64,000 bases of DNA from Bryobacterales bacterium. GTDB lineage: Bacteria; Acidobacteriota; Terriglobia; Bryobacterales; Bryobacteraceae. Positions 1,455-58,777 of the stretch are shown one piece after another. The notes beneath the pieces are model-generated. The model searched no databases. It was not told the DNA's origin and saw only the letters and a program-made list of their open reading frames with translations. The DNA lies in contig PMUP01000034.1 in the NCBI GenBank assembly GCA_003166865.1, forward strand, positions 13,008-77,007, read 5' to 3'. The translations under genes and the position numbers were made by a program. Every line of letters starts with the position of its first letter. Position 1 is the stretch's first letter.

Positions 1455-1546
1455 CGCTCGCTTATCGCGCGCAACGAGAAAGCGATGTATGATTACCGTT
1501 GCAATCCACAGTGTTTTCGAGTATCACAGCTTGGAGAAGAACGCAG

Positions 1547-2734
1547 ATGGCAACAGTATCAAAAGGTGGCCGGCTCCTGGTGGCGGCAGCCTGCCTCGTC
1601 ATTGTATTCAGCATGCCGGGGACCCTGCGCGCGCAGTCCCCTGGGTTCAGCATCACTCTGACTGGACAATCGATGATCCGGTCGGACATCCGTGTTCAAG
1701 CGCCGTCCGCGGTGCCGGCGATAACGTCGCTGTTGAAGGGCGACGTGGTCTTTACGAATTTTGAAGCGACGATCGTTGATGAAAAAAAAGGTCAGTCGCA
1801 CCTGGACGGCAGGTTTCTCTCCCCACCTGAAGCCCTCGATGCGCTGAAGGCGTTTGGCTTCAACCTGGTGTCGCTATCGAACAACCATGCGTTCGATCTC
1901 AAGGTTCCGGGCATTGAGAATACGCTTCAAGAGGCGAGCCGCCTGAACCTGGCTCATGCCGGGACCGGGAACACGATTGAGGAAGCTGCCGCGCCGGGTT
2001 ACCTGCACACGCCGAAGGGCACGGTTGCCCTGGTGGCGATGGCATCCGGCCTGGTTGCTGAGGGAGGGTCGGCCACCTCAACCCGGCCGGGCGTGAACGA
2101 GCTTCGCGTGGAAGGCAACAAGCCGAACGAAGAAGATACGCAACGCATTCTGCAGAGTATCCGAAATGCCAGAAAGCAAGCCGATCTGGTCATCGTGTAT
2201 GAACACAATCACGTATTCGATAAGCCCTTCGGGACGATCATGCTGGAAGAGTTGCCGGAGCGGCTGGCGCCGCCGGATTGGCTCAAGAAATGGACGCACG
2301 CGGAAGTGGACGCGGGCGCGGATATCATCGTGATGCACGGCGCGCCTCTGCTGCACGGTGTCGAAATCTATCACGGCAGACCGATCTTTTACGATCTGGG
2401 CAATTTCATTTTTCAGGCGCCGCCGTCGTTGATCTTGCTGGATGAACCGATCAACTGGGAAAGCGTGGTCGCCTATGTCGACTTCCAGGGAAAGAATCTG
2501 CGATCGATTACGTTCCGGCCGATCGCCCAAAATAAGATTGGCCAGGGTGAGGCTGACACTCATGACGAGCACACCAATAACCTCTTCCTCCAGACACGCG
2601 GCTTGCCAACGCCGGCTACGGGTGAGCAAGCCCACTATATCCTCGAGCGGCTGGCCGACTTGTCACGGCCTTTCGGAACGACGGTTGAAGTGAAAGGCGA
2701 TACAGCGGAGATTAGACTGAAAGGCGGAAATTAG
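1547..2734 (+). CDS. CapA family protein (PGA_cap metallophosphatase fold), exported
   Basis: A protein of 395 residues. The start at 1547 (MATVSKGGR) is chosen over 1499 because GGAGAAG lies just upstream and a signal peptide follows (LLVAAACLVIVF..LRAQ). The mature part reads as a PGA_cap domain: ITLTGQSMIRSD (modified from the usual GD motif), VVFTNFEATI, LSNNHAFD, VIVYEHNH, and HGAPLLHG..PIFYDLGNFIFQ near the C-terminus. The NNHAFD and HGAP segments carry metal ligands in this calcineurin-like fold. The family includes CapA/PgsA of poly-gamma-glutamate capsule synthesis, but single CapA-like proteins without capBC are common and of unknown substrate. No capsule genes are nearby, so the role is open. 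Confidence 0.85.
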   Translation: MATVSKGGRLLVAAACLVIVFSMPGTLRAQSPGFSITLTGQSMIRSDIRVQAPSAVPAITSLLKGDVVFTNFEATIVDEKKGQSHLDGRFLSPPEALDALKAFGFNLVSLSNNHAFDLKVPGIENTLQEASRLNLAHAGTGNTIEEAAAPGYLHTPKGTVALVAMASGLVAEGGSATSTRPGVNELRVEGNKPNEEDTQRILQSIRNARKQADLVIVYEHNHVFDKPFGTIMLEELPERLAPPDWLKKWTHAEVDAGADIIVMHGAPLLHGVEIYHGRPIFYDLGNFIFQAPPSLILLDEPINWESVVAYVDFQGKNLRSITFRPIAQNKIGQGEADTHDEHTNNLFLQTRGLPTPATGEQAHYILERLADLSRPFGTTVEVKGDTAEIRLKGGN

Positions 2735-2811
2735 CACGAAGCGCCACGTGAGGTCCTGGAGTCTCAGCCTCAGCCACAAAGGGCGTCCACATGCTGATAT
2801 GCTTGGGAACC

Positions 2812-3255
2812 ATGACGATCAACAACCTCCGGTTTTGTGCGCTTTTGGTTGGTGCGTTCGCGGCGGGATCGCTGCTGACCGCTCGCCTAATGAAAATCCA
2901 GCAAGCTCGGGCCGATAGCAATCGCGTCTACGAGCTTCGCATGTACCACCATACGTTCCCCAACCGCCTGGTGCCGCTTGAGACGCGGTTCCGCAACGGC
3001 GAGGTGAAGGTATTCGAAAAGAACCACATGAACTTCATGGGCGCGTGGGTGCCGCAAGATGCTCCTAACCATGAGAACCTGTTCATTTATTTGCTGGCTC
3101 ACGAGAACCGGGACGCTGCCAAGAAGAACTGGGCCGATTTTGGCGCCGATCCGGACTGGAAGAACATCCAAAAGACGTCGGAAGCCGACGGCAAGATCGT
3201 CGAAAAGGTCGAGTCCACATTCATGGACCCGATGGATTTTTCGCCGTTGAAATGA
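2812..3255 (+). CDS. NIPSNAP family protein, exported or membrane-anchored
   Basis: A small protein of about 147 residues. The N-terminal hydrophobic segment (CALLVGAFAAGSLLTARL) looks like an uncleaved anchor or signal peptide. A NIPSNAP/dimeric alpha-beta-barrel domain follows: VYELRMYHHTFPN near residue 43, FRNGEVKVFEKN, FMGAWVPQD, and FIYLLAHENRDAAKKNWADF with the typical W..F..DP..W pattern. Two ATGs are possible, 2791 and 2812; the second has GGGAA at suitable distance. NIPSNAP proteins have no agreed function in bacteria. The gene lies between capA-like and amidohydrolase genes on the same strand. Confidence 0.8.
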   Translation: MTINNLRFCALLVGAFAAGSLLTARLMKIQQARADSNRVYELRMYHHTFPNRLVPLETRFRNGEVKVFEKNHMNFMGAWVPQDAPNHENLFIYLLAHENRDAAKKNWADFGADPDWKNIQKTSEADGKIVEKVESTFMDPMDFSPLK

Positions 3256-3306
3256 TTTGAGAAGTCCAGCCCTCGCCCAGTTACACCCGGGCGACCAGAT
3301 ACTCAA

Positions 3307-5013
3307 ATGCGCTCCCACAAAATCCTCACCCCGTCCGGCGCAGTCATGCTGGTCGCGATCGCGGGTGCAGCCGCGATGCTGTGTGCGCAGCAGCCAGCAC
3401 CGGATCTGGTCCTCTCGAATGCGAAGATCATCACCGTCGATGAGCGCTTTATGATCGCACAGGCGGTGGCTATCCAAGGCGACCGCATCGTGGCCGTCGG
3501 CACCAACCAAGAGATGGCTCAGCTTGCGGGTGCGAACACCCGAAGGATCGACCTACGGGGTAGGGCCGTCATTCCCGGGCTGATCGACAACCATATGCAT
3601 CTTCTGCGCGCGGCCGCGACCTGGCTACGCGAACTCCGTTTCGATGGGGTGGAATCGCGAAAACAGGCCATCGAGATGCTGCGCGCCCGGGCGAAAGCGG
3701 CAGGGCCTGGGGAATGGGTCTACAACATCGGCGGCTGGGCCCATCAACAGTTCGCGGACGATCCAAAACCATTTACGCGCGAAGAGCTGGATCAGATCGC
3801 GCCGGATAATCCCGTAGCGCTCCAGGAATCGTACTATCAAGTATTTCTAAACAGCCGGGCCTTGCAGGCTTTGGGGATTGAAGAGAACGCGCCCGATCCG
3901 CAGGGCTTCGTCAAAGGGTCGATTATGCGCGACGCTCGCGGAAGGCCTACTGGGGTGATCCGGGGTGACATCCCAGCCACTCGCGCCGTTGCCTCCAGAC
4001 TTCCCAAGGTAGCGCCGGAACAGCTTGAGGCCAGCAGCCGGGCCTTGGTCCAAGACATGAATCGAGCGGGGCTTACTTCAGTCGGCGTGCCTGGTTGCAA
4101 CGCCGATGTGCTGGAGATTTTTCAAAAATGGAAGGCGCAGGGCCAACTCAATGTACGGATCTTTTGTATCGACGGCCTCGCGGGCGGAACTCCGGAGCAG
4201 GTGGACAAGGCCCTGGGGCAAATCCCCCGCATCAAGCTGTTTCAGGGCGACAGTTATATCGACAATATCTTTTTTGGGGAAAGCGTCTACCAGCCGCTGC
4301 ATGACCCGATGTTCGCGATTAAGTCCGATCCGACACCCGATCAGCTCGAGCAGTGGCGGCGCATGGCGATGGAGATTGCCAAGGCCGGCCTGCCCCTGCA
4401 CGTGCACGCGGAGCTGCACAACACCATTGATGCGTTCCTCGACCAAATCGAGGCGGTCAACAAGGAACATCCCGTCAAGAGCCTGCGCTGGACTCTGGCG
4501 CACGTGAACCAGATCAACGCACCACAGCTCGAGCGCATGAAGAAGCTGGGGATGTACGCCGCCGTGCATCCCTGGGCCGTCATCAACGGAGCGATCATGC
4601 ACGAAGAATTCGGAGACGGCGCTTACGATATGCCTCCGCTCGCCACGATCCAAAACAGCGGCATCCAATGGGGACTCGGAACCGACGGGACCGCGGCCAA
4701 TCAATATCTGCCATTCACGACCTTGTATTTCGCCGTTACTGGCAACATGGCGGGCGGCGCCAAGGTCAATCGGCAGACCATTGGCAGGGAGGACGCCTTG
4801 ATCGCACACACCCGCAAGAATGCGTACCTGGTTTTCCAGGAAAACAATCTGGGTTCGATTCAGCCGGGCAAGCTGGCGGACCTGCTGGTGCTCGACCGCG
4901 ACTACCTAACCGTTCCAGCGGACCAGATCAGAAAAATCAAACCGGTGATGACGATGGTGGGAGGCAGGATCGTATACGACGCCACCCTTGCGGCACAGGC
5001 GGCGGTCCGATAG
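3307..5013 (+). CDS. YtcJ-like amidohydrolase (Amidohydro_3), exported
   Basis: A protein of 568 residues with a signal peptide (VMLVAIAGAAAMLCAQ). The body is a complete YtcJ-like amidohydrolase: composite beta-domain DLVLSNAKIITVDERF, the metal-binding IPGLIDNHMHLLRA near residue 95, PLHVHAELHNTID, LRWTLAHVNQ, GLGTDGTAANQYLPF, and the closing GSIQPGKLADLLVLDRDYL. His pairs and the late Asp needed for a metal-dependent hydrolase are present. Such enzymes hydrolyse amides, carbamates or cyclic ureides; the substrate cannot be read from sequence. It is followed after 11 bases by the gene at 5025, so co-transcription is likely. Confidence 0.88.
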   Translation: MRSHKILTPSGAVMLVAIAGAAAMLCAQQPAPDLVLSNAKIITVDERFMIAQAVAIQGDRIVAVGTNQEMAQLAGANTRRIDLRGRAVIPGLIDNHMHLLRAAATWLRELRFDGVESRKQAIEMLRARAKAAGPGEWVYNIGGWAHQQFADDPKPFTREELDQIAPDNPVALQESYYQVFLNSRALQALGIEENAPDPQGFVKGSIMRDARGRPTGVIRGDIPATRAVASRLPKVAPEQLEASSRALVQDMNRAGLTSVGVPGCNADVLEIFQKWKAQGQLNVRIFCIDGLAGGTPEQVDKALGQIPRIKLFQGDSYIDNIFFGESVYQPLHDPMFAIKSDPTPDQLEQWRRMAMEIAKAGLPLHVHAELHNTIDAFLDQIEAVNKEHPVKSLRWTLAHVNQINAPQLERMKKLGMYAAVHPWAVINGAIMHEEFGDGAYDMPPLATIQNSGIQWGLGTDGTAANQYLPFTTLYFAVTGNMAGGAKVNRQTIGREDALIAHTRKNAYLVFQENNLGSIQPGKLADLLVLDRDYLTVPADQIRKIKPVMTMVGGRIVYDATLAAQAAVR

Positions 5014-12574: not shown

Positions 12575-13612
12575 CTACTTGCTCGTCTTGAAGATGCTCT
12601 TGGGGATCATGCCGTGAACGCCCTTGGTCCCATCCACGAGCTGCGTGATCTCGAAATCCACGGCCACGCTGGCCAGCATGTAAGCATCCTCCCGGCTCAG
12701 CTTCTTCTCATTCACCAGGAAATCGAGCGTCTCATGCACCGCGATCTTGGTAGCTTCCGTCAGGTCCGGATCGAGCCCCATGGTGATCCAATGCGTGGGC
12801 GTCTCGGCGCGCGGCCATTTCAGATGCATGTCCTTATGCAGGATGAACTGAAACACGCCGGTCAGCGAAGTCTCCATGGCGGTGATGTCCACTTCTCCGT
12901 TTCCCATGCCTGCGTGGCCGTCGCCGACCTCGAACAGCGCGCCGTGCGCATGCACCGGAATGAACAGAGTGGTTCCGGCCACCAGCTCTTTGTTATCCAG
13001 GTTGCCGGCGTGAATACCAGGCGGAGCGCTATTCACCTTACCGGCGCTTTCCGGGGGAGCTATGCCCATGCTGCCGAAGAACGGTTTGAGTGGAAGCTCA
13101 ATTCCCGGAGCGAAACTTCCCACCTTGCGTGCACGGTCCAAGGGAATGATCTTGGTCTTGGCGCCCTCGAACTCATCGGGTAAGAAACCCGAGCCTTTGC
13201 GAAAGCTGTTATAGGCGAACGGAACATCCATGCGGATTTCGCGAATCCGCACCTCCAACACGTCACCGGGTTCGGCGCCCTCAATGGCCACTGGTCCGGT
13301 CAACAAGTGGCCTCCGGGGCCGCGCTGATCCTGCGGAATCTCTTTGTATATGGTCCGCAGAGCGGGTGGGATTTGATCGGGCGGCAGGCCGGCCTGCTCC
13401 AACCGCTCGGGATTTCCGGACACGGTTTGGATCTCGACAACATCGCCAGATCGAATGGTCAGCACCGGTTTTGCGGCCGACCAATAATAGCCCCAGGCGA
13501 TGGTCTGAGGCGTGACTTTCAAGGTGAGGTCGGCCGCCGGAAGCCGCTCGTCAGCACAGATAAGAAAGATGCCGAGCAGCAGGCCGAGACGTGAAAACCG
13601 AGGTAGTTCCAT
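12575..13612 (-). CDS. Acetamidase/formamidase family protein, exported
   Basis: About 345 residues from ATG 13612 (an upstream TTG at 13621 is also open). A signal peptide (LGLLLGIFLICADERLPA) precedes an FmdA_AmdA domain: GDVVEIQTVSGNPE, GHLLTGPVAIEGAEPGDVLE, the IHAGNLDNKELVAGTT segment, IPVHAHGALFEVGDGHAGMG with several potential metal ligands, GNGEVDITAMET, and WITMGLDPDLTEA. The family hydrolyses formamide and short amides. An exported form is common in soil bacteria and could release ammonia from amides outside the cytoplasm. That would fit a nitrogen theme with the guanidine/urease operon 10 kb away, but there is no physical linkage. Confidence 0.85.
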   Translation of the reverse strand: MELPRFSRLGLLLGIFLICADERLPAADLTLKVTPQTIAWGYYWSAAKPVLTIRSGDVVEIQTVSGNPERLEQAGLPPDQIPPALRTIYKEIPQDQRGPGGHLLTGPVAIEGAEPGDVLEVRIREIRMDVPFAYNSFRKGSGFLPDEFEGAKTKIIPLDRARKVGSFAPGIELPLKPFFGSMGIAPPESAGKVNSAPPGIHAGNLDNKELVAGTTLFIPVHAHGALFEVGDGHAGMGNGEVDITAMETSLTGVFQFILHKDMHLKWPRAETPTHWITMGLDPDLTEATKIAVHETLDFLVNEKKLSREDAYMLASVAVDFEITQLVDGTKGVHGMIPKSIFKTSK

Positions 13613-13716
13613 GCGTAACAATGTACATCACGGTTGCCATAATGCGGTAAACTTGTGTGACAAGTTCGCCACGCCGCTAACTTGCATCCCTCCCCGTCGG
13701 AAGTTCGCACAAACCA

Positions 13717-23686: not shown

Positions 23687-23718
23687 CCACCTTGTGCCCT
23701 GCTGCACGGACGGTTGAG

Positions 23719-24792
23719 ATGCGAAAAAGCCTACCGATTTTATCCGCGCTGTTCCTGGTGTCGGGCGTCTTGAGCGCCGCTGGCAATCCGCCTTCCTTCA
23801 CCGTCGGCTGGTCCGTTTACGTGGGTTGGGATCCTTACCAGTACATGGCTAAGTCCGGGATGCTCAAGAAGTGGGCGGACAAGTACGGCGTCGCGATCAA
23901 GGTCCAGCGTTTCGACTACGCGCCTTCGCTCGACGCCTTCGTGGCAAAGAACATCGATGCTTGCGTGATGACCAACATGGAAGCGCTCGACATGCCTGCG
24001 GCCGCCGGCGTCGATACCACATCCATCATCACCGGCGATTACTCCAACGGCAACGATGCCGTGCTCGTGCGGCACAATCTAGCCCTCGGCCAGATCCCTG
24101 GCAAGCGCGTATTGCTGGTCGAAAAAACCGTCTCGCAATACCTCTTCGAGCGCGCCATGGCGCTCAATAACCTGGGCGGCGATCTCAAGCGCGTCAAATA
24201 TGTCAATACCTCCGACTCCGACATTGCGGGCGCGTTTCTGAGCGACACCAGCCAGGACGTGGTGGTCACCTGGAAACCGCTTGTCTCGCAAATCCTCAAG
24301 GGCAAGGGAATCACGCGCATCTTCGATTCTTCGAAAATCCCGGGCGAAATTCTCGACTTGCTGGTTGTCCGAACCGATATCCTCAACCGGCCGGATGGCT
24401 CCGGCCAACGATTCGCCAAGGCCATTGTGGGCGCATGGTACGAGCTAACGTCTCAAATGTCCAAACCCGGGCCTGAGGGCGACAAGGTCCTTTCCTCGAT
24501 CGCCAACGTTTCCGAAGACACCCTGGATTCCTATAAAGAACAACTTTCCACCACGCACCTGTTCTACACTGCTCCATCCGCGGTCGAAATGACGAACTCC
24601 GCTCAGTTGAAGAAGACCATGGAACTCGTTCGCCAGTTCTGCTTCTCGCACGGCCTGCTGGGCGACAAGACCGGCTCGCCCGACGACGTCGCCATTCGCT
24701 TCCCCGATGGTTCCGTCCAAGGCAAGAAGGAACACGTCCGCCTGCGGTTCGACGCGTCCTACATGGAACTCGCCGCTCAAGGCAAACTGTGA
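23719..24792 (+). CDS. ABC transporter substrate-binding protein, urea-carboxylase-associated (guanidine) type
   Basis: About 357 residues from ATG 23719, which begins the signal peptide (SLPILSALFLVSGVLSAAG). The mature protein matches the NMT1/SsuA-like family annotated as ABC_peri_uca (urea carboxylase region): FTVGWSVYVGWDPYQYMAKS, LKKWADKYGV, DACVMTNMEALDMPAAAGVD, TGDYSNGNDAVLVR, YVNTSDSDIAGAF, KIPGEILDLLVVRTDIL, VGAWYELTSQM, LVRQFCFSHGLLGDK and RFDASYMELAAQGKL. That family is established as linked to urea carboxylases, now known to act on guanidine, so guanidine is the inferred ligand. Permease and ATPase genes follow directly (7 bases, then 12). No known guanidine riboswitch is recognisable upstream. 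Confidence 0.85.
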   Translation: MRKSLPILSALFLVSGVLSAAGNPPSFTVGWSVYVGWDPYQYMAKSGMLKKWADKYGVAIKVQRFDYAPSLDAFVAKNIDACVMTNMEALDMPAAAGVDTTSIITGDYSNGNDAVLVRHNLALGQIPGKRVLLVEKTVSQYLFERAMALNNLGGDLKRVKYVNTSDSDIAGAFLSDTSQDVVVTWKPLVSQILKGKGITRIFDSSKIPGEILDLLVVRTDILNRPDGSGQRFAKAIVGAWYELTSQMSKPGPEGDKVLSSIANVSEDTLDSYKEQLSTTHLFYTAPSAVEMTNSAQLKKTMELVRQFCFSHGLLGDKTGSPDDVAIRFPDGSVQGKKEHVRLRFDASYMELAAQGKL

Positions 24793-24799
24793 GGATGAC

Positions 24800-25657
24800 G
24801 TGAGCGTACTTCAAATTCACGCCCACCCCACCCGGACCACCGTCTGGATTCTCTCCTGGTTTCTGTTTGTCACCGGTGTAATTAGCTACTTCTGGGTGTC
24901 GCGCGAGCGGCACCGCGACAACCCGGACGATCGCGTAATGCCCACGCTGCGCCAGATGAGCCAAGCCTTTGTCGACGCAACACTGAAGCCGGCCGAAGAC
25001 GACGAAGCCGCGGCAAATGCCTCCCAACAATCGCTGGCCACGCGAGTCCGGAACAGCATGCTGTGGAAGGATACGGCCGCAACGGGACGGCGCTTCCTGA
25101 TTAGCATGGCTCTTCTGTTTCCGGCCGTGCTGCTCGGCCTGCACATGGGGATGTTTCCGCACGTGGGTGCGTTCTTCCTGCGCTTCGTGCTGTTTTTCGA
25201 TAAAATTGTTGCCCTGTCGCTGCTCCCGATTCTTTTCATCGCATTCGGTATCGACGAGCTGGCGAAGGTTATGTTGATCGTGGTTGGCGTGGCGCCGACC
25301 ATCATACTGGATGCCTTCAATCTCACACGCAGCGTGCCGAAAGAGCAGATCGTGAAGGGCTTCACCCTGGGCGCCGGGGATTTCTCCATCACTTACCGGA
25401 TCGTTCTCAAACAAATCTGGCCGCGAGTGTTGAACAGCATCCGGCTCAATCTGAAGTCGGTAATGCTGTTCCTGTTCGCCGGCGAAATGATCGCATCCAC
25501 CGACGGCCTCGCTTATCGCATCGCTCTGCTACGCCGCCACATGGGCATGGATACTATCATCCCGTACGTGTTATGGGTGGCGTTGCTGCTATTCTTAGTC
25601 GATTTCGGAATGCGGACGTTGAACCGGAAACTGCATCCCTGGTTTCAGGAGGCCTGA
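24800..25657 (+). CDS. ABC transporter permease (guanidine/urea-associated importer)
   Basis: About 285 residues from GTG 24800, preceded by GAGGATGAC; an open frame from 24707 overlaps the binding-protein gene and is not used. The N-terminal transmembrane segment (TVWILSWFLFVTGVISYFW) is followed by a charged stretch to about residue 95, then a BPD_transp_1 membrane domain of five or six segments (MALLFPAVLLGLHMGMFPHV, IVALSLLPILFIAFGIDELA). The cytoplasmic coupling loop carries the EAA-type pattern QIVKGFTLGAGDFSITYRIV..WPRVLNSIR. This is the inner-membrane channel of the importer formed with 23719-24792 and 25670-26566. Confidence 0.85.
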   Translation: MSVLQIHAHPTRTTVWILSWFLFVTGVISYFWVSRERHRDNPDDRVMPTLRQMSQAFVDATLKPAEDDEAAANASQQSLATRVRNSMLWKDTAATGRRFLISMALLFPAVLLGLHMGMFPHVGAFFLRFVLFFDKIVALSLLPILFIAFGIDELAKVMLIVVGVAPTIILDAFNLTRSVPKEQIVKGFTLGAGDFSITYRIVLKQIWPRVLNSIRLNLKSVMLFLFAGEMIASTDGLAYRIALLRRHMGMDTIIPYVLWVALLLFLVDFGMRTLNRKLHPWFQEA

Positions 25658-25669
25658 GTTTCAGGAGGC

Positions 25670-26566
25670 ATGACGCGCGTGGCCACCGCACAAACGCTGT
25701 TGGAGGAAAAGACTGAACCGGCGGGTCTGGGAATGCGCGCATTGATTTGCATCCAGGACGTCCTGGTCGAGTATGGCCAGCCAGGCAAGCCCTCCAAGCG
25801 TATCTTGAATGGCCTCAGCCTGGACATCCGTGCGGGCGAGTTCATTTCCATCGTTGGACAAACGGGCTGCGGAAAGTCTACCTTGTTGCGGCTGGTGCTC
25901 GCCGAGGAAATGCCAACGCGTGGGCAGGTGTTGGTCGAGGGGAGCCCGCGCCAGCAACCGGATCGCCGCTGCGGATATGTGCCCCAAAAATATTCCCTGT
26001 TCCCGGACCGTACGGTGCTCGAGAACATTACGTTTGGCCTCGAAGTGACCGAGATCGGAATCTTGGGCGGCTTTTCACCGGCCCGGCGGGTGCGCCGCAA
26101 GGAATTTCAGTCCGAGGCGATCGGATATCTGCACCGCATGGGCCTGCGTGAATCGGACGCGTCCAAATACCCGCACCAGCTTTCCGGCGGCATGCAGCAG
26201 CGTGTCGCGATCGCGCAAGCGCTCATTATGCGGCCCAAGATCCTGCTGATGGATGAGGCCTTCAGCGCGCTCGATCCGGGCACGCGCGCCGGAATGCAGC
26301 GGCTGATCAAGGACCTGTGGCGTGAGACCGGCACCACGGTTCTTTTCGTAACCCACAACCCGCGCGAGGCTGTGATCCTCGCGACGCGCGTCATCGCTCT
26401 GGGCCGCACCGGCGCGGATGAGGATGGAGCAAACATAGTCCTGGATCTTTCCGTACCTGATACGGGTGACGAGCTGGCAATCGCGGCTCTGGTTCAGCGC
26501 GTGGAACGGACCACGTTCCCAGGCGGCGCGGAAAGCGACGAACAAACCGGCGCCCCAGAAGTCTAA
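25670..26566 (+). CDS. ABC transporter ATP-binding protein (guanidine/urea-associated importer)
   Basis: A protein of 298 residues with TCAGGAGG upstream of its ATG. All ATPase motifs are present: Walker A GQTGCGKST (residues 63-71), Q-loop in GYVPQKYSLFPD, ABC signature LSGGMQQRV (from about 171), Walker B ILLMDEAFSALDP (from about 191) and the H-loop in FVTHNPREA. It belongs to the SsuB/TauB/NrtD-like importer ATPases, in line with its binding protein. The short N-terminal extension before LICIQDVLVEYG and a C-terminal tail beyond the H-loop are normal. Co-transcribed with the permease (12-base gap) and followed by the ureohydrolase after 25 bases. Confidence 0.9.
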   Translation: MTRVATAQTLLEEKTEPAGLGMRALICIQDVLVEYGQPGKPSKRILNGLSLDIRAGEFISIVGQTGCGKSTLLRLVLAEEMPTRGQVLVEGSPRQQPDRRCGYVPQKYSLFPDRTVLENITFGLEVTEIGILGGFSPARRVRRKEFQSEAIGYLHRMGLRESDASKYPHQLSGGMQQRVAIAQALIMRPKILLMDEAFSALDPGTRAGMQRLIKDLWRETGTTVLFVTHNPREAVILATRVIALGRTGADEDGANIVLDLSVPDTGDELAIAALVQRVERTTFPGGAESDEQTGAPEV

Positions 26567-26591: not shown

Positions 26592-27743
26592 ATGTCCTTC
26601 TACAAGAACCATGCTCCGAAGCATCGGGAACACACCAGAGAAGTGAAACTTCCAGAACTCGAAGGTATGAAAGCTCTTCGTGATGAGGGCCAAATTCCGT
26701 CGCGCCAGTGGGAGCAGGAAGTGCGGCGCGGCAAGGAATTCGGCCTGGAATGCGTCGATTCCATCCAGGACAAGACCGAGATCAGTTGCTTTCAGCGTGG
26801 CGAACTGCCGCACTGGTCCGGCATCAACACGTTCCTCAAGACCCCTTACCTGGAGGACGTACGCAAAGTGGGCGAGTACGACGTTGCATTTGTCGGTGTG
26901 CCCTTCGACATCGGCACCACGTACCGCGCCGGGACGCGCTTCGGCCCGCAAGGAATTCGCCGCATCTCGTCCTTGTACACGACTTACAATTTCGAAATGG
27001 GCGTCGACCTCCGTGAGTCGCTTAAGATGTGCGACGTCGGCGATATTTTTTGCCCCGCCAACATCACCAAGAGTCACGACCAGATTACCAAGGGCGTCGC
27101 GCACATCCTATCGCAAGGAACGCTGCCCATGATCATGGGCGGCGACCACTCCATCGGCTTCCCCTGCGCGCGCGGCGTCGCGCAATGCATTGAGGGCAAG
27201 GTTGGCATCATTCACCTGGACCGCCACATCGACACGCAGGAAAAGGACATGGACGAGATCATGCACACTTGTCCGTGGTTCCATGCCACCAACATTCCGA
27301 ATTGCCCGCCGACGAATCTCGTGCAGGTCGGCATTGGCGGCTGGCAGGTTCCGCGTCCCGGCGTCAAGAAAGGCCGCGAGCGCGGATCAACGGTGCTGAC
27401 GATTTCCGACATCGAGCGCATCGGCATTGATAAGACCATCGAGATCGCGCTGGAAGTGGCTTGGAAAGGCGCGAGCGCCGTCTATCTTTCCTTCGACGTC
27501 GATTCCGTAGACGCCGGATTTGTCCCCGGCACCGGATGGCCCGAGCCTGGTGGTTTCCTTCCACGCGAGGCTCTCGCGATCTTGAAAGGCGTGGCCGCCG
27601 AAGGCATCGCGGCCATGGAAGCCGTTGAGGTTTCCCCGCCCTACGACATCTCCGACATCACGGCCCTCGTCGCCGTGCGAGCAATGGTGGACGTGCTGGC
27701 CTCCATGACCAAGCACGGCCGGATCGGCGGGAAACTGCACTGA
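26592..27743 (+). CDS. gdmH: Guanidine hydrolase-like ureohydrolase (arginase superfamily)
   Basis: A protein of 383 residues from ATG 26592. The N-terminal extension of about 90 residues (GMKALRDEGQIPSRQW, WSGINTFLKTPYLED) precedes the ureohydrolase core. Metal ligands: GGDHSIG (His186), DRHIDTQ (Asp210, His212, Asp214) and FDVDSVDAGF (Asp302, Asp304, Asp307). The canonical agmatinase DAHxD is here DRHID, followed by HTCPWFHATNIPNCPP, then GIGGWQVPRPGVKKGRERG and PGTGWPEPGGFLPREAL. I recall these from GdmH of cyanobacteria, a nickel-dependent guanidine hydrolase giving urea and ammonia, which also has the N-terminal extension. The gene sits between a guanidine-type importer and urease, which supports that call. 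An agmatinase or other guanidino-acid hydrolase remains possible. Confidence 0.78.
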   Translation: MSFYKNHAPKHREHTREVKLPELEGMKALRDEGQIPSRQWEQEVRRGKEFGLECVDSIQDKTEISCFQRGELPHWSGINTFLKTPYLEDVRKVGEYDVAFVGVPFDIGTTYRAGTRFGPQGIRRISSLYTTYNFEMGVDLRESLKMCDVGDIFCPANITKSHDQITKGVAHILSQGTLPMIMGGDHSIGFPCARGVAQCIEGKVGIIHLDRHIDTQEKDMDEIMHTCPWFHATNIPNCPPTNLVQVGIGGWQVPRPGVKKGRERGSTVLTISDIERIGIDKTIEIALEVAWKGASAVYLSFDVDSVDAGFVPGTGWPEPGGFLPREALAILKGVAAEGIAAMEAVEVSPPYDISDITALVAVRAMVDVLASMTKHGRIGGKLH

Positions 27744-27835
27744 CTCCCGCGTTCATCCTCGCCACCGATTTCGACTGCGGGGACGCGAGTGCAGTAGCCT
27801 CGGCTTGCGAGCCGATTCTCGGTTTCCGGCCGGCA

Positions 27836-29392
27836 GTGGAACTGGTTGCCGTCGATACCTTGTCGTCCGCAATCTCTCGCAACGGCCCAGGAGAGATCTT
27901 CGTGCTGCCCACCGCTCTCGATTTCAATCTGCTGCAGCGCGAGGCTCTCGGACATGCGATCGCTGAGGCCCGGCGAGCCAATCCGCAACTCAGCATTCAT
28001 CACGACGACGTCGACCCCACGCATCCCTTGGTGGTCCAGGCTCTCGCCGATCAAGTCGCACGCGCCATCTCGCCTGACGCGCGATCCCTCCAGCACATCG
28101 GCCTGATACTCGCCGCCAGCGGCCACGGCGATGCGGGCAGCCGCGCAAATAGTTACCGGCTGATGCGTCTGGTGTGGGAACAACTCGGCCTCGCCGCCGG
28201 CGAAGTCGGATTTGTCCGGCATGCCCAGCCGTTTCTCGCGCAAACCTTCGAAAACTGTGCGCAGCGCCCCTTGAACTGGATAATCCTTCCCGAAGCCCAA
28301 TGGAAAACCGAACACGTCGAGTTTGCGAGCGTGATCCTCGAGAATTTCCAGCGCCAGCATCCCGAAGCCGCCGCCTGGCGCATGGCCGAGCCGCCGGGCG
28401 ATCATCCGGTACTCACCGCGTGGCTCACGCAGCGGATCGCGCGTCTATGGAACGAGAAGCGCGCACGCGAGTCCGCGCGGCTCGCATCGCCAAAGCGAAC
28501 CGCTGCCTCTGCTGAATCCCGTGCCATCGGCGAGGGCGAAATCGCACGCGTTTCCGATCGCCAACAGATGTCGTGTCTGCTGGAACGAGTTCTCCCTCCG
28601 GCGAAGCCCGAGCGCGTGCTCGTCAAAGTTACTTGGCACGGCTATGCCACTGGAACCTACACGGATCCAGCCGCGCTCGATCTTTTGCTCGGCGCTCTGC
28701 CCGCGCCTGCGATCATTCTTGAAGGACATACCAGCAGCCGCAATACAGAAGATGCGGGATTCGACTGGGAAACCCAAGCGCGCGAAAACCGTGCCTGGAT
28801 ACGGCAACAAGACGCGGAGTATTTACGCCGCACCGGTCTCGCCGCCGTCCTGGCCAAACACCACGCCGAGTACGTTAACATTACCGAGACCTACTGGGAC
28901 GGCGCCTGCAATAAAGACAACGTTCCCGAAGTGCTGCTCCAATACACCGGCTCTCCGATGATCAGCTTCGCGAAATTCAAGGGTCCCACGCGGCTTGCGA
29001 TTTCGAATCTCTTTGGCTTGATTCCCGATCCGTTGCGGTCAGCCTGGCATGGGCCGAACATCACTTACTTTGCGCGCGTCTGCTGCGACCTTGCCAAAGT
29101 CTATGGCGCGCTGTTTCCGCTCATCGGCATCAACGAGGCTTTGTATTCCGCCGTGCGATGGAACCGCAAAGGCCTCTACCGCAGCCGCTGGGGTAATTAC
29201 GATTTGATCTCGAACGCGGGATACGTCACGGCGAGCAGCAATCTGCTCACTGCCGATATTCTCGCCAGCCGCCTCGCGGGGCAAGACGTGAATCGCAGCG
29301 CATTCTTCGATGTGGTGCGCGCCGAGTTGGGCTGGGATGCGTCCGCCGCCGCCGATCCCCTTCCGCAAGACGTCCAGTGCCTGTTTGCCTGA
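27836..29392 (+). CDS. CbiX-like chelatase domain fused to DUF362; candidate metal-delivery protein
   Basis: At least 518 residues from GTG 27836. In-frame codons without a standard start extend back to a CTG at 27740 that overlaps the gdmH stop (CTGA), adding 32 residues including a strand-like FILATDFDC. Domain 1 (about 85-200) reads as a CbiX/SirB/CfbA class II chelatase: [62 protein letters not shown]; both metal-binding His are retained (His97, His160). A linker of about 50 residues follows. Domain 2 (about 260-515) is DUF362: [50 protein letters not shown]. No Cys-rich ferredoxin cluster is present. It overlaps ureF by one base (TGATG). A role loading metal into guanidine hydrolase or urease is inferred from context. 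Confidence 0.75.
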
Positions 29393-30042
29393 TGCTGCCC
29401 TTGCTCCAGCTCCAGCAGCTTGCCGACAGTGCCTTCCCGATCGGAGGCGCTGCACACTCATTCGGCGTCGAGGCGCTGGTGGATGCAGGACTTCTGAACA
29501 CGGAAACTCTAGAGGAGTTCTTACAGGATTATCTCTGCGAAACCGGCGCGCTCGAAGCCGCTTACTGCCGGGCGAGCTGTGGGGCCGACGTCGGCGAATG
29601 GCTGACCTTAAACGCCGAACTCGGTGCTCGCAAACTAGCGCGCGAATCCCGCGACGCTTCCGCCGCCATGGGCCGGCGATTCCTGCGCCTGGCTGCGAAC
29701 ATTTCTAGTAACGACTTATTGATCGCCGCATCCGACCTGCAAGCCGAAACTCATCTGGCGACCTGCTTCGGTCTTGTTGCCGGAACCTTGGGAATTGATC
29801 CGACCACTGCCGCTGCCGCTTATCTTCAACAATCCATGACCGCGCTCGTCTCCGCGTGCCAGCGCTTGCTTCCGCTGGGGCAAACGCAAGCGCATCAGAT
29901 TATTTGGAACCTGAAACCGGCCATTATCGCCGCAGTGGAGCGACGCGTCATGGAGCCTGCGCTGACAAGTTCCTTCACGCCTCTACTCGACGTCGCTTCC
30001 GCCCGCCACGCTACGCTGTACACGCGCCTGTTCATGAGTTGA
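29392..30042 (+). CDS. ureF: Urease accessory protein UreF
   Basis: About 216 residues from ATG 29392, which overlaps the stop of the chelatase-DUF362 gene by one base. The typical UreF start is visible: [20 protein letters not shown] then [10 protein letters not shown]. Further matches are [28 protein letters not shown] and the C-terminal [16 protein letters not shown] plus [18 protein letters not shown]. UreF works with UreD and UreG in the GTP-dependent activation complex on apo-urease and acts in the cytoplasm. UreF is first of the urease genes here, unlike the common ureDABCEFG order. The stop is followed at once by ureD. Confidence 0.92.
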
Positions 30043-30045
30043 GTG

Positions 30046-30903
30046 ATGGCGCCGTCTTCAAACCTCCACTTGTCTTTTGAAGCGAATGACACAGGCGCGA
30101 CCATTTTGCGCGTCAAGCAACAGCAGCCGCCCTGGCGTGTCGTTCGTGGATTCCGCTCGCCGTCCGGAGAAACGCTGGCGCATGTTCACAATCTCTCCGG
30201 CGGAATCCTCGATAGCGATACGTTGCACTGCCAAATGGATGTCGGCGCCGGAGCGCAAGCGCAAGTCACGTCCACTGGCGCCACCCGGGTCTATCGGAGC
30301 CGTTCGCCCGAAGGCCTCGCATCGCAGCGGATGCACGTCAGCATCGCGGCCGGCGCGTACTTGGAATACTTGCCCGATCAGTTGATCCCTTTCGCTGGTT
30401 CGCGCTTCGAGCAGACGGCCCGCGTGGAACTCGAGCGCGGCGCTTCGCTCGTCTGGTGGGACCGCGTCGCACCCGGCCGCGAAGCCTCCGGCGAGGTTTT
30501 TCGATTTCACTCCCTGGCATCGCATTTCGAACTCATCGCCTGCGGACAGCCCATCGCGACGGAGCGCTGGACCCTCACGCCGCTCGGCACTCCTGGTGTG
30601 ACGCGCCTGGATTCGATAGCAATGCTCGGACCGTTCCGCCATTTCGCCTCCTGCTATGTGTGCCGCGCTGGTGAACCTCCAGCCTATTGGAAGACCCTCG
30701 AAGCGCAGCTGCAAATCATCGCGGACCAGCTTTCCAGCTCTGAGATATTATGGGGGGTGACCTCGTTAAGGGCGCATGGCCTGGTGATCCGCGGCGTCGC
30801 GATCCATGGGCGCGCTCTGGCAAGCGGACTGGTCGAATTTTGGAAAGCCGCCAAGTGGTCTCTTTGTGGCCGGGTCGCCACGCTGCCCCGAAAAGTTCAT
30901 TGA
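30046..30903 (+). CDS. ureD: Urease accessory protein UreD (UreH)
   Basis: About 285 residues; ATG 30046 lies three bases after the ureF stop, and an adjacent GTG at 30043 is equivalent. UreD family features: LHLSFEANDTGATILRVKQQ, GETLAHVHNLSGGILDSDTL, VTSTGATRVYRS, EYLPDQLIPFAGSRF, SLVWWDRVAPGREASGE and WGVTSLRAHGLVIRGVA. UreD binds apo-urease and forms the channel through which nickel from UreG reaches the active site. The protein is of full family length. A 29-base gap with an AGGAGG site separates it from ureA. Confidence 0.9.
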   Translation: MAPSSNLHLSFEANDTGATILRVKQQQPPWRVVRGFRSPSGETLAHVHNLSGGILDSDTLHCQMDVGAGAQAQVTSTGATRVYRSRSPEGLASQRMHVSIAAGAYLEYLPDQLIPFAGSRFEQTARVELERGASLVWWDRVAPGREASGEVFRFHSLASHFELIACGQPIATERWTLTPLGTPGVTRLDSIAMLGPFRHFASCYVCRAGEPPAYWKTLEAQLQIIADQLSSSEILWGVTSLRAHGLVIRGVAIHGRALASGLVEFWKAAKWSLCGRVATLPRKVH

Positions 30904-30932: not shown

Positions 30933-31235
30933 GTGCATCTGACTCCGCGCGAGCAGGAAAAGCTCTTGATCTTTACCGCTTCCGAACTGGCCAAAAAGCG
31001 GCGCGCGCGAGGCCTCAAGCTCAACTATCCCGAGGCTATGGCGATTCTCTCCGCCGAAGTGCTCGAAGCGGCGCGGGATGGGAAGAGCGTCGCCGACATC
31101 ATGAGTTTGGGCGGCTTCATCCTCACGCGCGCGGACGTCATGGATGGCGTCGCAGAGATGATTCATGAAGTCCAAGTGGAAGCCACTTTCCCGGACGGCA
31201 CCAAGCTGGTCACCATTCACGACCCCATTCAATAG
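30933..31235 (+). CDS. ureA: Urease gamma subunit
   Basis: A protein of 100 residues, the normal length for a separate gamma subunit, with a GTG start and a strong GAAGGAGG ribosome-binding site. Signature sequence: [60 protein letters not shown] and [20 protein letters not shown]. It is the smallest structural subunit of the (UreABC)3 urease trimer. ureB follows after nine bases. Confidence 0.95.
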
Positions 31236-31244
31236 GAGATCCAA

Positions 31245-31553
31245 ATGCACCCTGGCGAATACTTCCTCGACGACGGCGATGTGGAATTGAACGCCGGCCG
31301 CTCCACGGCGCAAGTGGTGGTCCGTAACACTGGCGACCGGCCCGTGCAGGTTGGCAGCCACTATCATTTCTTTGAAGTCAATTCCGCGCTCGATTTCGAT
31401 CGCGCCGCGGCTTACGGCATGCGTCTGGATATCGCGGCCGGCACGGCCATCCGCTTTGAGCCCGGCGAAGAGAAAGAAGTGCCGCTGGTACCATTCGCTG
31501 GCCGTCGATTCGTGTACGGCCACAACGGTAAAGTGAATGGGGCCTTGAGCTAA
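31245..31553 (+). CDS. ureB: Urease beta subunit
   Basis: A protein of 102 residues, normal for a separate beta subunit: [78 protein letters not shown] and [19 protein letters not shown]. The SHYHFFEVN block contacts the alpha subunit active-site region. AGGAGAT precedes the ATG. The stop overlaps the ureC start by one base (TAATG), indicating translational coupling. Confidence 0.95.
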
Positions 31554-33271
31554 TGAGTGTGAAGATCCCGCGCCGCACCTACGCCGATTTGTACGGACCC
31601 ACGCGAGGCGATCGCGTGCGCTTGGCCGATACCGAATTGATCGCCGAAGTCGAACGCGACTACGCGGTCTATGGCGATGAGATCACATTCGGCGGAGGTA
31701 AGGTGATCCGCGACGGTATGGGTCAAAGCTCCACCGCCACGCGCGAATCCGAGCATGGCGCGCTGGATTTGGTGATCACCAACGCGCTGATCATCGATCA
31801 TTGGGGCATTGTGAAGGCCGACGTCGGCGTTCGAAACGGCCGCATCGTGAAAATTGGAAAGGCCGGCAATCCGGATACGCAGGCCGGCGTGGACCCCGAT
31901 CTCGTTGTTGGTGCTTCCACCGAGGTGATCGCGGGCGAAGGCAAGATCCTCACCGCGGGCGCCATCGATAGCCACATCCATTTCATCTCGCCGCAGCAGA
32001 TCTACGAAGCGCTCTCCAATGGCACCACCACCATGCTCGGCGGCGGTACTGGTCCGGCTACCGGCACCAACGCAACCACTTGCATGCCGGGCCGATGGAA
32101 CCTGGAGCAGATGTTTCGCGCGGCCGAGGCCTGGCCCATAAACTTCGGATTTCTCGGCAAAGGAAACGCAGCGACGCGCGAGCCTCTGGCGGAACAAATT
32201 CTCGCGGGAGTCTGCGGCCTGAAACTGCACGAGGATTGGGGTACCACACCCGCAGCCATTGATGCCTGCCTGCGCGTGGCCGACGAGTTCGACATTCAGG
32301 TCGCTATACACACCGACACGCTGAATGAAGCGGGTTTCGTTGACGACACTATCGCCGCCATCGCCGGGCGAACCATCCACACCTACCACACAGAAGGCGC
32401 GGGCGGAGGGCATGCACCCGACATCATTAAGATTGCCGGGCTGCCCCACATCCTGCCGTCTTCCACCAACCCTACGCGTCCGCTCACGGTGAACACGATC
32501 GCCGAGCACCTGGACATGCTGATGGTCTGTCATCATCTGAATCCGCAGGTACCCGAGGACGTCGCCTTCGCCGAAAGCCGCATCCGGCAGGAGACCATCG
32601 CAGCCGAAGACATTCTGCACGATCTCGGCGCCATCAGCATGATGTCGAGTGACTCGCAAGCCATGGGCCGCATCGGCGAAGTGGTGACGCGCACCTGGCA
32701 AACGGCGCACAAGATGAAGGTGCAGCGCGGTCCGCTCGCAGGGGATTCTACTCGTAACGACAACCAGCGCATCAAGCGTTACATTGCTAAGTACACCATC
32801 AATCCCGCCATCGCTCATGGAATCGCGAACGAAGTGGGGTCCATCGAAAATGGCAAACTCGCTGATCTGGTGCTCTGGAATCCCGCATTTTTCGGAGTGA
32901 AGCCCGAAATGGTGATCAAAGGCGGATTCATCGCGTGGAGCGTGATGGGCGATGCCAACGCCTCCATCCCCACGCCTCAACCCGTACTCTATCGTCCGAT
33001 GTTTGGATCCTTCGGCGCAGCACCCCAAGCAATCGCCGCCACCTTCATCTCGCGCGCCTCGGTACCGCACGTGCAAAAACTCGGCCTCGGCAAGCGGCTG
33101 GTGCCCGTCGGGAATTGCAGAACAATCGGGAAAGCGGATATGATCCACAATTCAGCCACGCCTCATATCGAAGTGGACCCGGAGACTTATGAAGTCCATG
33201 CCGACGGCGAGCTTCTGACCTGCGAACCCGCCAGCATCTTGCCGCTGGCGCAGCGCTATTTTCTTTTCTGA
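31553..33271 (+). CDS. ureC: Urease alpha (catalytic) subunit
   Basis: A protein of 572 residues, full length. Nickel ligands and catalytic residues are present: SHIHF (His141, His143), the carbamylated lysine in GLKLHEDWG (Lys224), [16 protein letters not shown], the mobile flap [18 protein letters not shown] with the conserved His, MVCHHLNP, and [16 protein letters not shown] with the Asp ligand. Urease hydrolyses urea to ammonia and carbamate in the cytoplasm. The reading frame has no interruption and every key residue is intact, so an active enzyme is expected if nickel is delivered. Coupled to ureB by a one-base overlap; ureG follows after 18 bases. Confidence 0.96.
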
Positions 33272-33289: not shown

Positions 33290-33988
33290 ATGAGCCATAA
33301 TCACACCCATCGTGCATTTCGGATTGGCGTCGCAGGCCCGGTCGGCAGCGGTAAGACCGCGCTCGTCCATGTCCTGAGCCAGAGCTTATGGCCGGCGGTC
33401 AATCTGGCCGTCGTGACCAATGATATTTACACACGGGAGGACGCCGAATTTCTGATCCGTCAGGGCACGTTGCCGGCGGACCGAGTGACGGGCGTCGAAA
33501 CTGGAGGCTGCCCGCATTCCGCAATCCGCGAGGACGCCTCCATGAACTTGGAGGCAATCGAGGATTTGGAGCGCGCCCACTCGGGCCTCGAGTTGGTGTT
33601 CATCGAAAGCGGCGGTGACAATCTCGCCGCGGCCTTCAGCCCCGAGTTGGTGGACGTATCCATCTACGTGATCGACGTCGCCGGCGGCGACAAGATTCCG
33701 CGCAAGGGCGGACCAGGCATCATCCGCTCCGATTTGCTGGTCATCAACAAGATCGATCTCGCGCCGTATGTTGGAGCTTCGCTCGACGTGATGGATCGTG
33801 ACGCGCGAAAAATGCGCGGCGATCGCCCGTTCCTGTTCACGAATCTGCGCGCGGGTCTGGGCGTTCCCGAATTAACGGCGTGGGTGCAACAAAAAATGAG
33901 CCTGCCCCCGGAAGCGCGTCACAGAGTGGTCACGGTAAAGGATCTCGAAGGCCGGCCCGCGCGGCATTCTCACTCGCACGCGCACTAA
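33290..33988 (+). CDS. ureG: Urease accessory GTPase UreG with His-rich termini
   Basis: A protein of 232 residues. The N-terminus MSHNHTHR and the C-terminus ARHSHSHAH are histidine-rich, giving extra nickel-binding capacity. GTPase motifs: P-loop [11 protein letters not shown] (Gly13-Thr23), [15 protein letters not shown], the metal-binding CPH motif in [34 protein letters not shown], and [10 protein letters not shown] for guanine binding. UreG delivers nickel to UreDF-bound apo-urease on GTP hydrolysis. It is the last gene of the operon, no ureE is present, and its end overlaps the convergent metallopeptidase gene by four bases. Confidence 0.94.
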
Positions 33989-34721: not shown

Positions 34722-35618
34722 CTACATGGGCCAGATAGTGAAATCGCGAAACGCCATTCGCACCGGTGTCTTCATGTGCGCCAGTGCGTCGTTCAACTCC
34801 AGTAGCTGGCCGCGGCCCATATCGAGCGAGTGCTCGTCCGGCTGATACTTCGTGCCTACTTTGTAATCCAGATAGGGCGTGCGGGACTGCTCGATGTGGC
34901 AGCCGACAATGTGCGTGACAATTTTCCCTTCGGTGAAGCGGACCATTCGTTCGGTGCTGGCGACGAAAGCGGGAAAGTCGTGCACGTACAAACGGCCGGG
35001 ATAGAGACTGTCGCCGGCATCCAGGATTCCCGTCTGGCGATCGTAGTAGGCCAAGCTCAGCACGTCGTGGCCGGGGATGGGGAAGACATCGATGACCCGG
35101 CCGCCCAGATCGATCTTGCCCATACCGTCGGGCCAGTGCGGAATCTCGAAGGTCTGCATGGTCGCTTCCATGCTGAGCTGCACAACGGTGGTGTTGGCGC
35201 GCGCACGAAACTGCGCGTCCCCGGCAATGTGGTCGTCGTGCGAATGCGAGTGCCCGACAATCAGCGGCGGTGGCGGCTTATGATTGCGCGCCGCCCATTC
35301 GTCGATGACACCGGAAACCGCGGAGGCGACATGCGTTTCACCCGCGCCGGTGTCGATCAGCAAAACCTTATCGCTGCCGAAGAAAAGGTACAAAAACGGC
35401 TTCTCATAGTTGACGCAGCCGTTCTCCCGCAAAATGTAGAGGTCGGGATTGTAGGCGTGAATCTCCCATTCGGGCGCGTCTCCACACCTTGGCCCGCCCG
35501 TATGCCAAGCCAGAGGAAGCGAGCCCGCGCGAACGCCGCCACCATCAGGTTCCGGGGCTTGTGCCCAGTAACAACCGCACACGAGCAACAATCCCAGGCT
35601 GAGAGGGAGTGATCTCAT
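34722..35618 (-). CDS. Exported metallo-beta-lactamase-fold hydrolase
   Basis: A protein of 298 residues with a signal peptide (LPLSLGLLLVCGCYWAQ), possibly a lipoprotein-like leader. The MBL fold is marked by YLFFGSDKVLLIDTGAGETH, the metal-binding motif VGHSHSHDDHIAGD (HxHxDH), VFPIPGHDVLSLAYYD with a further His, and TGILDAGDSLYPG with the bridging Asp. A late His lies in THIVGCHIEQS. All standard zinc ligands are visible. MBL-fold proteins range from lactonases to glyoxalases, and no subfamily is certain. The signal peptide places it outside the cytoplasm. Confidence 0.85.
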   Translation of the reverse strand: MRSLPLSLGLLLVCGCYWAQAPEPDGGGVRAGSLPLAWHTGGPRCGDAPEWEIHAYNPDLYILRENGCVNYEKPFLYLFFGSDKVLLIDTGAGETHVASAVSGVIDEWAARNHKPPPPLIVGHSHSHDDHIAGDAQFRARANTTVVQLSMEATMQTFEIPHWPDGMGKIDLGGRVIDVFPIPGHDVLSLAYYDRQTGILDAGDSLYPGRLYVHDFPAFVASTERMVRFTEGKIVTHIVGCHIEQSRTPYLDYKVGTKYQPDEHSLDMGRGQLLELNDALAHMKTPVRMAFRDFTIWPM

Positions 35619-58172: not shown

Positions 58173-58777
58173 GGAATTCGCCGCTCCATTTGAGTGCCAC
58201 TAGAAACTTCGACTAAGTGTACACCTTGAGCCGCGGGGAATGCCCTGAATGTTTATCCCCATTCCGGCTTTCGTAATCCTTTCACAGGTCAAAATTCGCA
58301 TTGTGCCCGAGTGACGGCGCATCCGGAAGCCTATCCGTCGATAGCCGCCCGGAAGTACTAATCGAAGGCTTACCAGATATTGGACTCTTATCTTATTGGA
58401 CTCTGTGCACGTTATGGCGCATTATCGGAAGGCATTGAGCCCGCCGAACCTTTTCCAGCAGGGCGGAGGCGATTCCGTTTCGAGTCAGAGTCGGAAGATA
58501 CCGAGGTCGAGCGCGTTTAACGACCTCGCCGCAAGTCAGCTATTTAGAAGCAGGTGCCATGCGCTTTCTTCACAACTTGAAACTTCGATTCTCGCCGCCG
58601 CGAAGGACTGACCCCGATTTCGGAGGCTTGCGCTTCCGGCGGCTCCATGCTTTTTGAGGCGGCGAGCGAGCGCAACTTCAATTATCTCTTTGAGGATGTC
58701 GTGCAACGCCTTCCAGGTGGTTGAACTCGTGTAGAATACTTGCTTCGCAGTTGTGCGGGTCACGCCAAGGAGAGAAG
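58173..58777. other. Intergenic stretch without a clearly supported gene
   Basis: The stretch holds two copies of ATTGGACTCT at about 58378 and 58396. It also has a 32-codon open frame on the plus strand from ATG 58559, of no recognised family, with basic residues and a FGGLRFRRLH segment. A possible promoter and the ribosome-binding site (AAGGAGAGAAG) of the following gene lie at its right end. Confidence 0.4.

Follow-up and report, generated by a model that had tools for sequence, protein, structure and literature searches.

A chelatase–DUF362 fusion protein encoded beside gdmH is a candidate nickel-maturation factor for guanidine hydrolase

In a Bryobacterales bacterium, a stretch of 64,000 nucleotides of contig PMUP01000034.1 (here called the window) contains, between the guanidine hydrolase gene gdmH and the urease accessory gene ureF, an open reading frame on the forward strand (27740-29392) that joins a class II chelatase half (residues 1-245) to a divergent DUF362 half (residues 258-550). 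Two known folds are found in one chain that is conserved over its whole length, the gene is linked to gdmH and co-occurs with one clade of gdmH, and most of the carriers tested lack both HypA and HypB. The best-supported reading, and in our judgement a probable one, is that the fusion is a dedicated maturation factor of GdmH that loads nickel, with nickel binding and transfer as its presumed activities. The protein would bind Ni2+ and help to load apo-GdmH, the role that is filled in Synechocystis by GhaA and GhaB, which are relatives of HypA and HypB. A first-pass annotation of the window had proposed that the fusion loads nickel into GdmH, urease or both, instead of HypA/HypB or UreE; the linkage to gdmH and the absence of HypA and HypB from 11 of 16 carriers favour this proposal for GdmH, whereas the urease role is weak, as adjacency to urease is confined to one genus.

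The frame is open over 27740-29392, and no ATG, GTG or TTG is present in it 5' of 27836, where a GTG provides the first conventional start. The full-length protein therefore requires a CTG at 27740, which overlaps the gdmH stop TGA (27741-27743); the alternative is a short start at the GTG. The CTG is favoured as the probable translation start because the relative at locus L008 has an ATG at the matching position (L008:7739), directly after the gdmH stop, and because residues 4-27 of the structure model, which make up the initial strand and helix of its chelatase lobe, are encoded 5' of 27836. Residues are numbered here from 27740, so that His97 and His160 of the first-pass annotation, which were counted from 27836, correspond to His129 and His192. 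At the 3' end, the fusion stop TGA (29390-29392) shares one base with the in-frame ureF ATG (29392). The open reading frame is not a chance one, because 17 homologues retain its whole length; it is genuine as first annotated, and its position directly behind gdmH and its one-base overlap with ureF are likewise as described there.

Together with the window protein, the homologues form a family of 18 that align over their whole length; the 17 others are 46-64% identical to the window protein, and the family is spread over Acidobacteriota, Planctomycetota, Latescibacterota, Poribacteria and Myxococcota. A phylum sample of 297 genomes returned the window's own copy only, and a search of 121 relatives gave five fusions, own copy counted. 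Scanning a named species collection with the five-member alignment, in a search that demands two conserved peptide patterns, yielded 15 loci, four of which, judged by length, are contigs already found among the 121 relatives; two further members (G450 and G468) were reached via gdmH. No NCBIfam model matches any of the 18 proteins, no homologues were found in IMG/VR, and among the matches listed in a search of the open-access literature neither a CbiX-DUF362 protein nor such a GdmH helper is described. Two haloarchaeal plasmid records that match over 20% of the length were rejected as homologues; one encodes a CbiX/SirB protein within a cobalamin operon, and the other is unannotated.

In 13 of the 15 database loci, and also in the window, G450 and G468, the gdmH gene is located directly upstream of the fusion in the same orientation, which amounts to 16 of 18. 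In the 17th case (G375), the contig of the fusion also carries gdmH, at a distance of about 35 kb, and the fusion is directly followed by a sodium:solute symporter with 36-38% identity to those encoded next to gdmH in Rubrobacter and Nonomuraea. Related symporters beside the fusion or gdmH (L009:10512-11951, L042:7227-8729 and L052:3492-4943 on the reverse strand) are candidate guanidine transporters. The 18th locus is a 4.4-kb Poribacteria contig without gdmH, the rest of that genome not having been searched for the gene; on this contig larE, which encodes the sulphur insertase of nickel-pincer nucleotide synthesis (L018:416-1303, forward strand; TIGR00268, E 2e-98), is directly upstream of the fusion (1444-3333).

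Four surveys with the window GdmH as query (E 1e-80) detected seven gdmH carriers among 201 relatives, one among 294 genomes from the phylum of Singulisphaera acidiphila, one among 282 from that of L019 and four among 64 from that of L017, and the fusion is present in all 13 of these gdmH genomes. Four of the 13 are the survey centres (three chosen for having the fusion, one the window's own), and the remaining nine came up as gdmH carriers during the surveys; for seven of these the fusion had been found before. A tree of 25 GdmH proteins places the 17 from fusion genomes on one side of a 100/100 branch and, on the other, eight that derive from plasmid records; none of the gdmH records matched when the plasmid collection was searched for the fusion. 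The linkage of the fusion to gdmH is near-exclusive across several phyla.

Within the fusion, the DUF362 half (28511-29389, forward strand) is the better conserved, with a mean pairwise identity of 0.61 versus 0.43 for the chelatase half and 73 of 293 versus 14 of 245 residues invariant. His300, His330, His374, His437, Glu383, Cys448 and Asp488 are identical in 18 of 18 members. For the DUF362 domain named in the first-pass annotation, the score to PF04015 is under the Pfam gathering cut-off (17.9 for the whole protein and 18.9 for the half alone, versus 24), but hhalign of the half against 30 DUF362 open reading frames from relatives gave a probability of 90.0 and E 1.6e-6, where the best of 20 column-shuffled controls reached E 0.087. 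Modelled alone from residue 258, the half has a predicted local distance difference test score (pLDDT) of 84.1 and a predicted template modelling score (pTM) of 0.87. Foldseek gave no match under E 0.001, a viral structure library likewise gave none under E 0.001, and a PDB sequence search gave none that is credible. A second aligner, run over the first 1000 chains from Foldseek, placed the malate racemase Mar2 (6d6z) at the top (Z 12.9, root-mean-square deviation (rmsd) 3.1, 190 residues aligned; next Z 5.6). Mar2 is a LarA-type nickel racemase and the match covers the N-domain fold of LarA; DUF362 and the LarA family belong to a common Pfam clan, CL0471 (PMC11770544). At the profile level, Lar_N (PF09861) matched neither the window protein (E up to 1) nor any of the 18 members (E up to 0.1), and hhalign of the half against 15 LarA relatives gave a probability of 0.5, i.e., no direct profile match.

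This conservation could also indicate an enzyme of guanidine metabolism that acts on guanidine, a derivative or a product, with the DUF362 half as active site and the chelatase half as a remodelled scaffold. Such a role would account for the stronger conservation of the DUF362 half and for its invariant His, Cys, Glu and Asp residues, which resemble an active site; in addition, LarA relatives are enzymes and the chelatase histidines are dispensable. However, GdmH and urease already complete the breakdown of guanidine, with no step obviously missing, and the 11 of 16 carriers without HypA and HypB have a helper role left vacant. We regard an enzymatic function as rather unlikely; together with the making of a small nickel cofactor, it is one of the two main alternatives. 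If the fusion is a nickel-loading factor of GdmH, the invariant histidine, cysteine and acidic residues of the DUF362 half may constitute the main metal or transfer site.

The chelatase half (27740-28474, forward strand) is well supported as a two-lobed class II domain, which agrees with the first-pass annotation. The CbiX match is over the Pfam cut-off (25.3 versus 22 bits), 14 of the 18 family members match CbiX (E up to 0.1), and SirB is matched across both lobes by sequence profile (E 2.6e-5). In the full-length model (mean pLDDT 83.7), residues 1-241 superpose on the coproporphyrin ferrochelatase CpfC (8aw7) with Z 23.1 and rmsd 2.2 over 239 residues, followed by SirB (Z 21.2), CbiX (Z 19.0) and CbiK (Z 17.9); Foldseek also found DR2241 of Deinococcus (2jh3). 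The relative placement of the two halves is unsure because pTM for the full-length model is 0.53. The window protein retains an intact histidine pair in the second lobe, His129 (28124-28126) in SGHGD and His192 (28313-28315) in TEHVEF. Although both histidines are kept here, as first annotated, this does not extend to the family: 11 of the 18 members retain His129 and 12 retain His192, and in 17 the two are kept or lost together (the exception is L019). Both are lost in two Singulisphaera proteins (S. acidiphila included), L015, L022, L009 and L040. Plain chelatase catalysis was accordingly set aside as the shared function of the family, and the emphasis that had been placed on this pair as the mechanism is weakened, as the pair is dispensable in the family while four histidines of the DUF362 half are invariant. 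In a nickel-loading factor, the chelatase half might serve as an auxiliary metal or docking module with its own histidine pair optional, and the metal would pass by direct protein contact.

The combination of folds invites the alternative that the fusion charges a small molecule (a tetrapyrrole or some other nickel cofactor) with nickel or cobalt, for use together with GdmH or in another context. The class II chelatase fold with its His pair intact in the window, the LarA-clan fold of the other half and the LarE gene directly upstream in the Poribacteria locus are in line with this. In contrast, many members have lost the His pair, the LarE adjacency is one case in 18 (LarE was searched in the other fusion loci and found in none), and the Nitrospira inopinata guanidinase has a plain Ni/Mn site (PMC11410670). 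As expected from the first-pass annotation, no tetrapyrrole gene was found among 20 further window open reading frames scanned (from 44 picked out). LarA (PF09861) gave no match in the window's own genome, G298 and G299, and is present in G322 and G375. Use of a nickel-pincer cofactor in the own genome is not supported, as LarA has no match there, LarB, LarC and LarE not having been searched in whole genomes. In the alignment, KGP and SN of the fusion stand opposite KTH and KN of DUF362, and because of this replacement it is unlikely that the DUF362 half holds a pincer cofactor in the manner of LarA; the fusion seems to have no counterparts of LarA His174 and Lys184, as traced through the weak alignment of DUF362 itself with LarA (E 0.002). 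Altogether, we consider a cofactor-making role very unlikely. A further reading, which we rate as unlikely, is that chelatase and LarA-clan folds, which elsewhere handle nickel within organic cofactors, have been joined as a non-GTPase loader of a hydrolase metal centre, perhaps via a small nickel carrier passed between the halves. If true, nickel enzymes would be made in a third way, in addition to maturation of the HypAB/UreEFG type and the synthesis of cofactors.

That the GdmH of Synechocystis depends on helper proteins is documented. The Synechocystis operon comprises GdmH, GhaA, GhaB and an ATP-binding cassette (ABC) importer (PMC10094980), GdmH activation requires GhaAB (PMC11271267), and dependence on HypA and HypB is reported for the GdmH-related metformin hydrolase (PMC11399263). 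Among 16 fusion genomes (the family without G450 and G468), HypA and HypB are both absent from 11, the own genome included; HypB matches under the cut-off elsewhere include the window's own UreG. The Pfam matches of the fusion itself contain no HypA domain and no cobW/HypB/UreG GTPase domain. The observations that the first-pass annotation had named as counting against its proposal did not arise: the chelatase fold was modelled, the family is linked to a nickel enzyme, and not every carrier encodes the known helpers. In other gdmH loci, the slot behind gdmH is occupied differently. Seven alphaproteobacterial plasmid records carry gdmH, and in the four whose regions were opened a short His-rich protein is encoded directly after it (L043:7178-7693, L046:7178-7627, L045:7166-7705 and L054:6142-6723), with HupE/UreJ next in two Sinorhizobium regions. 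Two of these His-rich proteins were scanned and gave no Pfam match; the His-rich protein is another candidate nickel helper. The slot is thus held by the fusion in the clade studied here and by the His-rich protein in the alphaproteobacterial regions, and GhaA/GhaB are in the operon of Synechocystis.

Several points weigh against a role of the fusion in loading GdmH. Linkage indicates a shared pathway, not nickel delivery, and for three of the four surveys the central genome had been picked because it carries the fusion. The own genome is 95.9% complete and most carriers are metagenome bins, so that the absence of HypA and HypB may reflect bin incompleteness. HypA is over the cut-off in five of the 16 carriers and HypB in the same five. 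These five genomes, however, match the hydrogenase large subunit, and for this reason their HypA and HypB have another client: the match extends over most of the model in G413, G414, G416 and G417 and is a 77-residue fragment in G418, and it lies within about 6 kb of hypA in G416, G417 and G418 and on other contigs in G413 and G414 (G420, without HypA, has a fragment of 79 residues). Seven of the 18 members lack His129 and six lack His192, so that the family has no chelatase-type metal site in common. Furthermore, metformin hydrolase activity in extracts was unaffected by chaperones, though the knock-out failed to grow on metformin (PMC11271267), comammox Nitrospira make an active guanidinase without a known chaperone (PMC11410670), and two Rubrobacter plasmid regions show no annotated helper next to gdmH. 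The comammox and Rubrobacter cases suggest that GdmH can sometimes do without a helper or that the helper gene can lie elsewhere.

The position of the fusion in the window also raises the possibility of a urease nickel-delivery factor that replaces UreE. In the window the fusion and ureF overlap, in L010 and L011 the two genes are adjacent, and none of the genomes in which the fusion abuts ureF (the own genome, G413 and G414) has a match to UreE_C. However, urease adjoins the fusion in only 3 of 18 loci (the contigs L017 and L018 are short), all of one genus, whereas gdmH does so in 16 of 18. UreE_C is found in 6 of the 16 carriers, confirmed within urease clusters for G416, G421, G422 and G426, and in these four the urease cluster with its own UreE is on another contig or distant from the fusion. 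The Pfam matches of the fusion include no UreE_N or UreE_C domain. An exploratory pattern that we noticed post hoc is that His129 is lost in 5 of 6 UreE-bearing versus 1 of 10 UreE-lacking carriers (Fisher p 0.008, kinship of these related carriers uncorrected); by lineage the pattern is reduced to approximately 3 of 3 versus 1 of 3, and it is no more than a lead towards the chelatase pair acting as nickel donor. Support for a urease role is weak, a UreE replacement is in our view highly improbable, and urease was set aside as the main partner.

It is also conceivable that the fusion is a guanidine or nickel sensor or another regulatory protein of the operon. No guanidine riboswitch was detected at the Rfam gathering score in the window or in 12 other loci scanned, which leaves regulation unexplained. 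Nevertheless, no DNA-binding or signalling domain is present among the Pfam matches and the invariant residues are enzyme-like, and we give this explanation hardly any weight.

GdmH, the proposed client of the fusion, is encoded in the window at 26592-27743 on the forward strand (Pfam Arginase, 1e-74). The closest solved relatives of the GdmH of the window are guanidine hydrolases (7esr/7oi1, E 6e-151; 9fek, E 2e-150), and the next PDB match is a guanidinobutyrase at 1e-49. In other genomes, the GdmH proteins of both Singulisphaera (L013:8685-9986; L014 gdmH) start with a Tat-like leader, KRRDFLGAAAAAAALGG, which suggests export after folding. One Latescibacterota gdmH is read with one internal TAG (G427:C9:5215-6360, L051; L024:5215-6360).

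All the genes of the cluster are on the forward strand, in the order guanidine-type ABC genes, gdmH, fusion, ureF, ureD, ureA, ureB, ureC and ureG. The ABC transporter consists of a substrate-binding protein (23692-24792; TIGR03427, named putative urea, E 8e-136), a permease (24707-25657; PF00528), the true start of which is probably later than that of the open reading frame, and an ATPase (25670-26566; PF00005). From the gdmH context, the transporter encoded at 23692-26566 may be expected to import guanidine. The urease genes are ureF (29392-30042; PF01730, E 3e-32), ureD/ureH (30043-30903; PF01774), ureA for the gamma (30933-31235), ureB for the beta (31245-31553) and ureC for the alpha subunit (31553-33271), and ureG (33290-33988; TIGR00101, E 2e-95).

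Rfam 5_ureB_sRNA matches are antisense within ureC (window 31708-32007, reverse strand; L007:2351-2655, forward strand) and may merely reflect conserved coding sequence. A metallo-beta-lactamase-fold protein is encoded near gdmH or the fusion in four loci (window 34725-35618, reverse strand; L008:9492-10388; L009:11951-12976; L038:7217-8479, reverse strand), the copies showing 57-64% identity to that of L008. Farther away in the window are an acetamidase/formamidase family gene (12578-13621, reverse strand), with fmdA also found by gdmH in Rubrobacter indicoceani, and a gene for a bacterial protein with a legume-lectin domain (58721-59560, forward strand; PF00139, E 4e-15).

As a nickel-loading factor, the fusion would be a testable alternative GdmH helper, would give a role to a family for which NCBIfam has no model, and would bring a DUF362 branch and the chelatase fold into nickel-enzyme maturation. 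Its loci mark guanidine use in Acidobacteriota, Planctomycetota, Myxococcota and Latescibacterota. For comammox, the nickel supply of guanidine hydrolase without an encoded HypA/HypB-type helper has been called unclear (PMC11410670). The fusion family may not solve this case, because no Nitrospira locus is among the 15 returned by the species scan with its two required peptide patterns.

With UreE, the fusion shares a postulated function in nickel delivery, and UreE_C is unmatched where the fusion abuts ureF; it differs in lacking a UreE domain among its Pfam matches and in its urease linkage, which is limited to one genus. Similar to the class II chelatases SirB, CbiX, CbiK and CpfC, its residues 1-241 adopt the two-lobed fold, and the window protein keeps the second-lobe His pair. 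In contrast to these enzymes, it is joined to DUF362, is gdmH-linked, has lost the His pair in many members and has no tetrapyrrole neighbours among the open reading frames scanned. DR2241 is likewise a multi-domain protein with a chelatase fold, but superposes poorly on the fusion over the whole length (rmsd 20), and its added domains presumably differ from those of the fusion. The likeness to DUF362, LarA and Mar2 (PF04015, PF09861, clan CL0471) consists of the profile match to the 30 DUF362 open reading frames and the fold match to Mar2, whereas the fusion stays under the DUF362 cut-off and has KGP...SN in place of the KTH...KN of DUF362. Finally, although the Pfam matches of the fusion include neither the HypA nor the HypB/UreG GTPase family to which GhaA and GhaB are related, the Synechocystis pair is encoded in a gdmH operon with an ABC importer, and nickel loading is the role proposed for the fusion too.

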